Assembly: GCF_003031265.1 (NCBI RefSeq)
Contig: NZ_CP019966.1
Location: forward strand, 1 to 64,000
Reading direction: 5' to 3'
Source of the DNA: Rhodopseudomonas palustris
GTDB lineage: Bacteria; Pseudomonadota; Alphaproteobacteria; Rhizobiales; Xanthobacteraceae
Length of the DNA: 64,000 nt
How positions within the stretch are numbered: position 1 is the first letter of the stretch; the number at the start of each line of letters is the position of its first letter. Of this stretch, positions 30,349 to 35,116 are shown piece by piece. Below the pieces are notes generated by a model. That model saw only the letters and a program-made list of their open reading frames with translations. It ran no database searches and was not told the origin of the DNA. The translations under genes and the position numbers were made by a program.

Positions 30349-31746
30349 ATGTCGTCATCGCTTGCGGAAGGCATCGCGCAAACTCGTGAACCGATCCGCT
30401 ATCCGTCGCAGGGCGCCGTCGTCGGCTGGATCCTGTTCGACTGGGCGGCGCAACCGTACTTCACGCTGATCACGACCTTTATCTTCGCGCCCTATTTCGC
30501 CACCTACGTGGCGCCCGATCCGGCGACCGGCCAATCGCTGTGGGGCTTCGCCACGGCAGCGAGCGGTTTCGTCATCGCCTTGGCATCGCCGGTGCTCGGC
30601 GCGATCGCGGATGCCAGCGGCCGGCGCAAGCCGTGGATCGCGCTGTTCGGCGCCATGCTGGTGATTGGATCGATGCTGATGTGGTTCGGCAAGCCGGGCG
30701 AACCACATACGATTCTGCCGCTGCTGATCGCCTACGCGATCGCCACCATCGGCGTTGAATTCGCCACCGTGTTCAACAACGCGATGATGCCCAACCTGGT
30801 GCCGCCGGAGAAGATCGGCCGTCTGTCAGGGACCGGCTGGGCGACCGGCTATGTCGGCGGCATCCTGTCGCTCGTCCTGGTGCTCGGCTTTCTGGCCGCG
30901 AGCCCAGATACCGGCAAAACCCTGCTCGGCCTTGCGCCGTGGTTCGGACTCGACCCGGCGCTGCACGAGGGCGATCGGATCAGCGGCCCACTCACCGGGG
31001 CGTGGTTCGTATTGTTCGTGCTGCCGATGTTTCTGCTGACGCCGGACTTCCCCGCCAAGCTGGCGCCGCGCGCCGCGATCCGCGAGGGCCTGCGCGAGCT
31101 CGCCGAAACGCTGCGCGACCTACCGCGACGGCGTTCGCTCGCGATCTTCCTGCTCGCCAACATGATCTACACCGACGGCCTGGTATCGCTGTTCGCGTTC
31201 GGCGGCATCTACGCCACCGGCACCTTCGGCTGGAGCACGATCCAGATCGGCACTTTCGGCATCATCCTGGCAATCGCCGCCACCATCGGCGCGTTCGTCG
31301 GCGGCCGCCTCGACGATGCGTTCGGGTCCAAGCGGGTGATCACCGGCTCGCTGGTCCTATTGCTGATCGCGATCGGCGGCATCCTGCTGGTCGATCCCAG
31401 CCATGTCTTGCTGATTGAAGTAACGCCGCCGCAACCGGGCGCAGCGCTGTTCGCCTCACCTGCCGAACGCGCCTACCTGCTGCTCGGCTGCCTGATCGGC
31501 ATCGCCGGCGGCCCGCTGCAGGCGGCATCGCGCACGCTGCTGATCAGGATCGCCCCACGAGACCGGATCGCCCAGTATTTCGGCCTGTTCGCCCTCACCG
31601 GCAAAGTCACCTCGTTCATCGGCCCGCTGCTGATCGCGACCGTCACCGCGCTGGCGAGCAGCCAGAAGGCCGGCATGGCCGTGCTGGTGCTGTTCTTCGT
31701 CGCCGGATTGGCGCTGCTGACCCAGGTTCGGGGCTCCGCGGACTGA
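30349..31746 (+). CDS. UMF1-type major facilitator transporter
   Basis: A 465-residue membrane protein with about 12 helices. The motif WILFDWAAQPYFTLITTFIF and the block EFATVFNNAMMPNLVPPEKI are typical of the UMF1 (Atg22-like) family. The start ATG at 30349 has GGAAGGAACA upstream. The same frame is open far upstream, but that part is antisense to ggt and is rejected. The substrate is unknown. Confidence 0.9.
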   Translation: MSSSLAEGIAQTREPIRYPSQGAVVGWILFDWAAQPYFTLITTFIFAPYFATYVAPDPATGQSLWGFATAASGFVIALASPVLGAIADASGRRKPWIALFGAMLVIGSMLMWFGKPGEPHTILPLLIAYAIATIGVEFATVFNNAMMPNLVPPEKIGRLSGTGWATGYVGGILSLVLVLGFLAASPDTGKTLLGLAPWFGLDPALHEGDRISGPLTGAWFVLFVLPMFLLTPDFPAKLAPRAAIREGLRELAETLRDLPRRRSLAIFLLANMIYTDGLVSLFAFGGIYATGTFGWSTIQIGTFGIILAIAATIGAFVGGRLDDAFGSKRVITGSLVLLLIAIGGILLVDPSHVLLIEVTPPQPGAALFASPAERAYLLLGCLIGIAGGPLQAASRTLLIRIAPRDRIAQYFGLFALTGKVTSFIGPLLIATVTALASSQKAGMAVLVLFFVAGLALLTQVRGSAD

Positions 31747-31795
31747 TCGCGCCGGTGCGTGGACAAACACGCCGACCTGGTCTATAGGAGCGGGC

Positions 31796-31873
31796 ATGAT
31801 CCACCTGACCGCCTCGTACTGGTACTTTTATTTTAGCAGCTCGCTGGCGGCGGGAGGATTTCGCGCGATCTGA
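31796..31873 (+). CDS. Aromatic-rich leader peptide of DAHP synthase attenuator
   Basis: A 25-codon frame, M-IHLTAS-YWYFYF-SSSLAAGGFRAI, with an AGGAG ribosome-binding site at 31786-31790 five bases upstream. Six consecutive aromatic codons (Tyr-Trp-Tyr-Phe-Tyr-Phe, 31817-31834) are followed by a region that can pair with the terminator arm downstream. This is the expected design of a leader peptide that senses charged tRNA for aromatic amino acids, placed directly before an aromatic-pathway entry enzyme. Confidence 0.85.
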   Translation: MIHLTASYWYFYFSSSLAAGGFRAI

Positions 31874-31921
31874 AGATTGCAGCATAGAGATCCGACAAGC
31901 CGCCAGACCTGGCGGCTTTTT
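31844..31921 (+). terminator. Attenuator: terminator with competing antiterminator
   Basis: The terminator stem AAGCCGCCA (31897-31905) pairs with TGGCGGCTT (31910-31918), loop GACC, followed by a run of T (31917-31921). The competing arm CTGGCGGC (31844-31851), inside the leader-peptide gene, is perfectly complementary over 8 bases to GCCGCCAG (31899-31906). CCGCC at 31809-31813 could in turn pair with GGCGG at 31846-31850. The three alternatives fit classical ribosome-mediated attenuation. Confidence 0.85.
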
Positions 31922-31961
31922 CGTTTGAGCCGGCAGGTCTCCTGAACAGGAGCAAACTGCC

Positions 31962-33050
<1,089 letters not shown>

Positions 33051-33158
33051 TTAGCTAAGCGCAGGGCAGCGACCTCAGATCGCTGCCCCGCTTTTCGCAT
33101 CGGTTGTTAGGGCGCTGCAGGACTTGAGTGAAGCGATACGATCCAAGGTGCACTGAAT

Positions 33159-33264
33159 CCTCATCCTGAGGAGCCCGGCGAAGCCGGGCGTCTCGAAGGA
33201 TGGGACCACGCATTGCCAGCGGGGCATGGTTCGAGACGGCGCTTCGCGCCTCCTCACCATGAGG
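33159..33264. repeat. Palindromic repeat, family D
   Basis: The element begins cctcatcctgaggagcccgg and ends tcctcaccatgagg. Internally it has the hairpin gcccggcgaagccgggc and the inverted pair cgtctcgaagg/ggttcgagacgg. It lies between the convergent DAHP synthase and purH genes and is a commonly dispersed element type in this genus. Confidence 0.85.
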
Positions 33265-33308
33265 CTGTGCTTGTTGCTGACGCTTCAGAGCTCAAGTTAT
33301 GAAACGCC

Positions 33309-34898
33309 TCAGTGCCGGAAGTGCCGGGTGCCGGTGAACACCATGGCGATGCCGGCGTCGTCCGCAGCCTTGATCACTTCGTCGTCGCGGACCGAGCCGC
33401 CGGGCTGGATCACCGCGGTGGCGCCGGCTTCGATGCAGGCCAGCATGCCGTCGGCGAACGGGAAGAACGCATCCGAGGCGACGACCGAACCCTTGGTCAT
33501 CGGCGCCGCGAGCTTCAGCTCGGCCGCCGCATCCTGCGCCTTGCGGGCGGCGATGCGGGCGGAGTCGACGCGGCTCATCTGACCGGCGCCGATGCCGACG
33601 GTGGCGAGATCCTTGGCGTAGATGATGGTGTTGGACTTGACGTGCTTGCCGACGCGGAACGCGAACTTCAGGTCGCGTAGTTCGGCTTCGGTCGGCTGCC
33701 GCTTGGTGACGACCTTCAGCGCCATGTCATCGACCACCGCATTGTCGCGGCTCTGCACCAAGAGGCCACCGGCGACGGTCTTGTAGGTCAGGCCATTGGC
33801 GCGCGGATCGGGCAGCGCGCCCGCCAGCAGCAGCCGCAGATTCTTCTTCGCGGCGACGATCGCGATCGCTTCCTCGGTGGCGTCGGGCGCGATGATCACT
33901 TCGGTGAAGATCTCGGTGATGGCGCGCGCGGCCTCCGCATCGAGGGTACGGTTGAGCGCCACGATGCCGCCGAACGCCGACACCGAATCGCAGGCCAGCG
34001 CCTTGCGATAAGCGTCGAGCAGATTCGCGCCCTCGGCGACACCGCATGGGTTGGCGTGCTTGACGATGACGCAGGCCGCGGTGCGCTTGGCATCGAACTC
34101 GCCGACGCACTCATAGGCCGCGTCGGTGTCGTTGATGTTGTTGTAGGACAGCTCCTTGCCCTGCACCTGGCGTGCGGTGGCAACGCCCGGACGCTTCTCC
34201 GGGGTGGCGTAGAACGCCGCGGTCTGGTGCGGATTTTCGCCGTAGCGCAGCGACTGGATCAGCCGACCGCCGATCGCGCGGAAGTCCGGCGCGTCGGTCT
34301 TGAGCTGCAGCGCGAACCAGTTGGAGATCGCCGCATCGTAAGCCGCGGTGCGCGCATAGGCCTTGGCGGCGAGGCGCTTGCGCAAATTCAGCGTGGTCGC
34401 GCCGTTGTTGGCGGTCAGCTCGTCGAGCACCGCCTGATAGTCGTTAGCCTCGACCACCACGGCGACATCGTCGTGATTCTTGGCCGCGGCGCGGATCATC
34501 GCCGGACCGCCGATGTCGATGTTCTCGATGCAGTCTTCGTAGCCGGCGCCTTTATCGACGGTGGCTTCGAACGGATAGAGGTTGACGACGAGGAGGTCGA
34601 TCTGCGCGATGCCGTGATCGGCCATTGCCTTGTTGTGCTCGGCATTGTCGCGGATCGCCAGCAGGCCGCCATGCACCTTGGGGTGCAGCGTCTTGACCCG
34701 GCCGTCCATCATCTCGGGGAAGCCGGTCAGGTCGGAGACGTCCTTCACCGGCAGGCCGGCGGCGGCGATCGCCTTGGCGGTGCCGCCGGTCGAGACCAGC
34801 TCGACGCCGTGGCCAACGAGCGCCTTGGCGAAATCGATCAGACCGGTCTTATCGGAAACGGACAGAAGGGCACGGGTGACGCGGCGCGGCTTAGTCAT
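33309..34898 (-). CDS. purH: Bifunctional AICAR transformylase/IMP cyclohydrolase
   Basis: The last two steps of de novo IMP synthesis. The 529 residues have an N-terminal MGS-like cyclohydrolase domain ([20 protein letters not shown], then [15 protein letters not shown]) and a C-terminal transformylase domain ([36 protein letters not shown]). The start ATG at 34898 gives [16 protein letters not shown]. The heparinase-like gene lies upstream on the same strand. Confidence 0.97.
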
Positions 34899-35116
34899 GG
34901 GGCAAGATCCTCTGATGGAAGGAAACATATGCCCAGGCGCGCGGCAGATACGTCCCGCGCTTCCCGATGGTGCTCCATCCTAGGTCGCCAGTCGCGCGAG
35001 GCGGGCGTTGGTTAGCAGTTTTCGCCTGCGGCCACAACGGCGACCAAGGTCGTTCAGCCTTGCGGATTTGCCGGGTTTTGCTGGCGAACCGCTATTCCCG
35101 TCGCCGGGACAACGCC

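Follow-up and report, generated by a model that had tools for sequence, protein, structure and literature searches.

The locus lies in a window of 64 kb, the whole stretch of DNA that was analyzed, and its parts are all encoded on the + strand. An MFS-like gene (named by eye), the stop codon of which is located at 31746, is followed by a leader ORF of 25 codons (31796..31873), a terminator, and the gene for a type I DAHP synthase of the AroFGH type, which has a GTG start and encodes 362 amino acids (31962..33050). The enzyme matched TIGR00034 with 526 bits (cut-off 173.2), and its best match among solved structures was a Phe-regulated enzyme (5.5e-142). A single type I DAHP synthase is encoded in the genome, together with a type II enzyme at another site (PF01474; G000:C1:2179887-2181200, +), and thus the type I enzyme with the putative attenuator is one of two.

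The leader ORF starts with an ATG at 31796-31798, encodes the peptide MIHLTASYWYFYFSSSLAAGGFRAI and ends with a TGA at 31871-31873. The 25-codon ORF and its start had been given in a preliminary description of this DNA, as had a run of six consecutive aromatic codons, which was indeed found at 31817-31834 and reads TAC TGG TAC TTT TAT TTT (Tyr-Trp-Tyr-Phe-Tyr-Phe). The codon pattern TWYTGGTWYTWYTWYTWY, which was formulated after the run had been seen, is found at a single place in the 64-kb window, and 100 shuffled sequences did not contain it.

The leader was examined in 110 loci (L001-L110). Fifteen were without a leader, and five were excluded by name (L032, L037, L053, L074, L079); L032 and L037 later matched the covariance model R1 described below, so that two true members are absent from the counts. 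The locus L051 comprises only 52 nt upstream, which is too short to show a leader. A terminator was detected by our own rule in 89 of 90 leaders (all except L060), which yielded 85 unique sequences; all counts of conservation refer to related sequences and not to independent events. Between four and nine aromatic codons precede segment 1, the 5′ arm of the antiterminator described below, in all 85 sequences. Codons for all three residues, Phe, Tyr and Trp, were found there in 42 of 43 alphaproteobacterial sequences and in 8 of 8 sequences from Xanthomonadales. The other 34 sequences contained all three residues (14), only Phe and Tyr (19), or Phe and Trp (1) before segment 1, and the Trp codon is thus absent in 19 of these 34 and in 1 of the 43 alphaproteobacterial sequences. 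The earlier proposal that the DAHP synthase gene is controlled by an attenuator in which Tyr, Trp and Phe codons are mixed thereby received strong comparative support. The last aromatic codon begins 14 nt before the GGCGG core of segment 1 in 37 of 39 alphaproteobacterial sequences, in 8 of 8 from Xanthomonadales and in 10 of 32 others. The idea that segment 1 shifts its reading frame between lineages was dropped, because 74 of the 79 sequences with a GGCGG core keep one frame. A GGAGG (31853-31857) is located directly 3′ of segment 1 and is present in every one of the 14 related sequences of alignment A2; it resembles an internal Shine-Dalgarno sequence, at which the ribosome could be slowed.

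The preliminary description had also noted a strong terminator from 31897, the 5′ arm of which could alternatively pair with 31844-31851, and both features were verified. The terminator is intrinsic and precedes the structural gene; its stem is formed by segment 2 (AAGCCGCCA, 31897-31905) and segment 3 (TGGCGGCTT, 31910-31918) and is followed by TTT. Segment 1 (TGGCGGC, 31845-31851), which is part of CTGGCGGC (31844-31851) and lies within the leader ORF, is complementary to the terminator 5′ arm, so that segment 2 is at the same time the 3′ arm of an antiterminator. The duplex of segments 1 and 2 in the window was matched by none of 200 shuffled sequences, and it was better than shuffled versions at the 5% level in 71 of the 85 unique sequences. 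An antiterminator helix that overlaps the leader ORF and is an alternative to the terminator, as is typical of a ribosome-mediated attenuator, is thus present.

Both helices were analyzed further with an alignment of 56 sequences. In the terminator 98.9% of the cells were paired and two-sided changes occurred in 3 of 8 pairs, and in the antiterminator 90.0% of the cells were paired and two-sided changes occurred in 3 of 7 pairs, with the outermost antiterminator pair failing in 28 of the 56 sequences. The covariation score of each helix was reached by none of 500 shuffled alignments, a procedure that leaves the relatedness of the sequences in place. Controls with slid arms scored at most 0.140 compared to 0.187 for the true terminator, and at most 0.038 compared to 0.100 for the true antiterminator. 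A middle hairpin (31856..31893), which separates segment 1 from segment 2 and has the stop codon in its loop, was predicted for the window as well as for the consensus of a group of 14 related sequences, in which it exhibited no two-sided changes.

In the minimum-energy fold, a further short segment within the leader ORF, segment 0 (CCGCC, 31809..31813), pairs with segment 1 and is a candidate protector. This pairing was better than shuffled versions at the 5% level in 27 of the 85 sequences, and the window itself was not among them (f 0.265). Covariation for it was absent from the alignment, in which a version slid by +3 scored higher (0.412 vs. 0.218); the MAFFT alignment does not hold the position of segment 0 in register. 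The pair count gave no support for a general fourth arm, and segment 0 is retained only as a weakly supported candidate for a fourth segment.

The promoter region was scored with a simple promoter score that made use of the general sigma70-like consensus. The best match consists of a -35-like element TGGACA (31760..31765), a spacer of 17 nt, and a -10-like element TATAGG (31783..31788), which ends 7 nt before the leader ATG. From this distance a leaderless leader mRNA is predicted, the 5′ end of which would be at 31796 or adjacent to it. Like segment 0, the promoter-like site had been missed in the preliminary description, which had regarded the leader as well initiated by an AGGAG. This claim was not borne out. 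The AGGAG (31786-31790) is not conserved among the relatives, and it overlaps the conserved -10-like box, to which it probably belongs, rather than to a ribosome-binding site. In the alphaproteobacterial set the -10 hexamer of the best site was located 6–8 nt before the ATG in all 44 sequences, compared to 70 of 880 shuffled sequences; in four of the 44 (L010, L099, L106, L110) two ATGs are 6 nt apart and the upstream one was used; measured from the other ATG, the distance would be 13 nt. The GACA of the -35-like element was kept in all 44 sequences, the spacer had a length of 17 nt in 42 and of 18 nt in two of them, and TATATG was the most frequent -10-like box (21/44). Two alphaproteobacterial sequences, L047 and L050, are not part of this set and were placed among the others; their best sites are found 10 and 6 nt before the ATG. 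The Xanthomonadales comprised nine sequences in the promoter analysis (with L071) and eight in the codon and spacing analyses. The best -10 was located 7–8 nt before the ATG in 8 of the 9, with a promoter score barely above that of shuffled sequences (6.82 vs. 6.31). Among the remaining 36 sequences the distance varied from 0 to 32 nt and was 6–8 nt for six of them. A TATAGT box is found 25–27 nt before the ATG in six sequences from Oxalobacteraceae, and therefore a 5′ leader is likely in that group.

A different start for the same attenuator can be envisaged, with transcription initiating further upstream and with the AGGAG as a genuine Shine-Dalgarno site. Ribosome loading at the AGGAG was the proposal of the preliminary description, the motif is present in the window, and a minority of the relatives contains a Shine-Dalgarno-like motif. 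Against it stands the -10-like box at a fixed distance in the whole alphaproteobacterial set. Moreover, the median energy of pairing with the anti-Shine-Dalgarno sequence was -2.2 kcal/mol at the leader starts and -6.6 kcal/mol at the DAHP synthase starts, and -4 kcal/mol was reached by only 6 of 44 leader starts, in contrast to 44 of 44 DAHP synthase starts. A stricter promoter scan of 31500-32100 did not favor it either, as no promoter whatever was reported, the TGGACA-17-TATAGG site included. Translation from a Shine-Dalgarno site downstream of another promoter is thus regarded as unlikely, and the leaderless start is preferred.

To describe the behavior of the putative switch, the RNA was folded with the span of a ribosome masked, and the footprint was assumed to have its 3′ edge 12 nt past the first base in the A site. 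Among the 85 sequences, the commonest gap between the edge of the stalled ribosome and segment 1 was 0 nt (range -5 to 9). In the window, the terminator probability was 0.95 without a ribosome as well as with a ribosome at the stop codon, and it was 0.00, 0.00, 0.03, 0.50, 0.28 and 0.39 with a ribosome at aromatic codons one to six. When the upstream RNA was left free, the respective values were 0.00, 0.01, 0.04, 0.57, 0.88 and 0.95, and because of this rise the Tyr-Trp-Tyr codons look strongest in the model. Before segment 3 exists, the mean probability of the 1:2 pairing in the 85 sequences was 0.35 for free RNA, 0.83–0.88 with a stalled ribosome and 0.33 with a ribosome at the stop codon. 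The contrast was smaller in the window, with values of 0.56, 0.88–0.94 and 0.63, respectively. At full-length equilibrium the terminator probability was at least 0.57 at every ribosome position in 5 of 7 relatives tested, and therefore the switch must be kinetic there and be decided before the synthesis of segment 3. Equilibrium folding as a proof of switching was rejected, as it fails in these five relatives.

Within the family, the type I DAHP synthase gene has a patchy distribution and was found in 43 of 296 genomes and in 4 of 47 genera. For the genus of the window 16 genomes were listed, 14 of which have the gene, and an aromatic leader was found in all 14 loci; in the two others, G108 and G199, a type I DAHP synthase was not detected at E <= 1e-60. 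Conservation of codons and arms had been suggested earlier as a check; an aromatic leader peptide is encoded in 30 of 30 family loci fetched (30 of the 43), and the whole element is kept across classes. For wider searches, the covariance model R1 was built from an alignment of 56 non-redundant elements (56 of 89). Full-length matches on the + strand with E <= 1.8e-8 were obtained for 61 of the 80 nearest named loci, which are the best 80 among the enzyme matches listed, and 19 of the 80 were without; 47 of the 61 had been part of the model alignment and 14 had not. Six of the 80, the enterobacterial and Photobacterium loci L073, L074 and L077-L080, had no R1 match at E <= 0.001.

A sample of 398 genomes covered the phylum, and the enzyme was found in 225 of them. 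At least 49 of the 225 had a full-length R1 match with E <= 8.3e-8 just 5′ of the enzyme gene under strict filters, and under the same threshold and filters 176 had none beside it. In the window's class, which was assigned as alphaproteobacteria from named relatives, the element was present in 23 of 23 enzyme-holding genomes of the sample, 35–75 nt before the protein match. The 50th hit at E <= 8.3e-8 precedes a chorismate-mutase-like gene (L167, named by eye). In the window's own genome R1 gave one full-length and 12 partial matches at E <= 10. When 34 places with R1 hits were fetched, 19 of the first 20 were located before a DAHP synthase gene, and the remaining ones, nearly all weaker hits, included the chorismate-mutase-like gene at L167, pheS-like genes (L169, L170, L172), a leader with WWW like that of trpE (L178) and unrelated places (named by eye). 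Of the 62 rows with a leader in a tree built from 81 enzymes, 59 fell into one clade of 62 rows with a support of 99/97, and the distribution of the leader label required at least 6 changes, compared to 17.2 in shuffled versions. The Mesorhizobium enzymes were nearer to that of the window than the Bradyrhizobium enzymes. The leader thus seems to be old in its enzyme clade and to have moved together with the gene.

Taken together, the conservation at DAHP synthase genes, the covariation of terminator and antiterminator, the geometry of codons and arms, the masked folding, and the position of the promoter-like site argue that the element is very probably a ribosome-mediated transcription attenuator. 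The stable fold of the window (z -3.19) might also be expected of a metabolite-binding riboswitch or a protein-binding leader that overlaps an ORF by chance. This is very unlikely, because no Rfam family was found at threshold, conservation resides in codons and alternating arms, and the spacing from codons to arm is conserved in alphaproteobacteria and Xanthomonadales. It is still less credible that the terminator, which is located between two genes on the same strand, belongs to the MFS-like gene and that the aromatic ORF is incidental or encodes a small functional protein, since leader and terminator accompany DAHP synthase in different classes and within a well-supported clade of the enzyme, a conserved promoter-like site separates the upstream gene from the terminator, and the antiterminator covaries.

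The mechanism of the attenuator would build on the leader codons, segments 1 to 3, the terminator and the position of the promoter-like site, which all stand out in the comparison of related sequences. Transcribed from a promoter that ends 7 nt upstream of the leader ATG, the mRNA would begin at or adjoining this codon, and ribosomes would be loaded without a Shine-Dalgarno site. If charged tRNA-Tyr, tRNA-Trp or tRNA-Phe were scarce, a ribosome would stall within the six aromatic codons. Its leading edge would come to lie at the border of segment 1 or slightly before it, and segment 1 would pair with segment 2, a pairing that the middle hairpin would favor; with the terminator blocked in this way the DAHP synthase gene would be transcribed. 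If all three tRNAs were charged, the ribosome would reach the stop codon and open the middle hairpin, so that segments 2 and 3 could form the terminator and transcription would stop at about 31921. Behind the ribosome, segment 0 may bind segment 1. The element would thus respond to all three amino acids, and it probably shuts off the DAHP synthase gene when Tyr, Trp and Phe are plentiful.

The Rfam search gave no family at threshold; below it were RNAI (26.8 of 47 bits) and Phe_leader (RF01859; 20.5 bits, gathering threshold 55). Phe_leader and the classical attenuators of pheA, pheST and trp likewise combine an aromatic leader peptide with alternative hairpins, but they belong to other genes, and the window stays below the gathering threshold of RF01859. 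A work of Neshat et al. from 2014 is reportedly tied to the aroF (cg1129) leader of Corynebacterium glutamicum, and comparative work on attenuation includes that of Vitreschak from 2004.

According to the relevant passage of PMC4046766, aroF (cg1129) of C. glutamicum has a putative attenuator leader peptide with Phe-Tyr-Phe. As in the window, a leader with aromatic codons would precede one of two DAHP synthases; however, this species is an actinobacterium, Trp is unmentioned in that passage, and the likeness concerns the leader peptide as described there. The section on aroF of Acholeplasma in PMC8632094 reports the motif uORFC-13-1, likewise a uORF and a terminator before a DAHP synthase gene, but with at least one Phe codon and restricted to Acholeplasma and environmental sequences. 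Attenuation has been proposed for DAHP synthase genes of gammaproteobacteria as well, in passages that give no leader sequence: it was hypothesized for E. coli aroF(-tyrA) (Camakaris 1980, as cited in PMC8632094 and PMC2659441), Vibrio aroF-tyrA has an entry among tabulated putative attenuators (PMC1173090, Table 7), and a list of predicted RNAs includes aroF and aroH of Shewanella, with aroF as an “attenuator sensing tyr-tRNA” cited from E. coli work (PMC2659441). For the predicted start, the closest parallel in the passages considered is rnTrpL of Sinorhizobium meliloti, a rhizobial attenuator RNA that begins with the ATG of trpL (PMC7298713), while such a start is only predicted in the window; it differs in that its leader is a Trp peptide of 14 aa, which precedes trpE(G). 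For Streptomyces lividans, too, several leader peptides were described as leaderless in the respective part of PMC8079986.

The preliminary description had supposed that the element had not been described for this gene. This holds in that an account of the R1 element in Proteobacteria was not found in the open-access PMC papers searched, and it does not hold for the gene in general, for which attenuation has been reported or proposed in Corynebacterium, Acholeplasma and E. coli, as far as the cited passages go. The kind of attenuator is therefore known and DAHP synthase genes have been linked to attenuation elsewhere, and the R1 family appears to be undescribed in the open-access literature searched.

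If the attenuator reading is true, the gene for the entry enzyme of the aromatic pathway has, in many alpha-, beta- and gammaproteobacteria, a defined control at the level of transcription with Tyr, Trp and Phe as joint inputs. In E. coli, aromatic control follows the TyrR/TrpR scheme, which may not apply in lineages carrying the element. The element mostly follows one enzyme clade and would be a natural multi-input attenuator with a lineage-dependent Trp codon. The analysis also corrects a plausible misreading, in which a -10 box had been taken for a ribosome-binding site, and the element would make leaderless initiation in attenuators testable across many species. By analogy to rnTrpL and peTrpL of S. 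meliloti, it is conceivable, if rather doubtful, that the terminated leaderless transcript of about 125 nt and the aromatic peptide are trans-acting regulators, so that a single element at the entry of the pathway would sense the three aromatic amino acids and in addition signal to other genes, e.g., that of the type II DAHP synthase.

Two further features were observed downstream of the DAHP synthase gene. The intergenic sequence at 33155-33265, 3′ of the gene, was noted by eye to be palindromic and resembles repeated intergenic elements of rhizobia. A ZMP/ZTP riboswitch (RF01750, 63.3 bits) is located on the - strand at 34924-35005, directly 5′ of a purH-like gene (33309-34928, -; named by eye).
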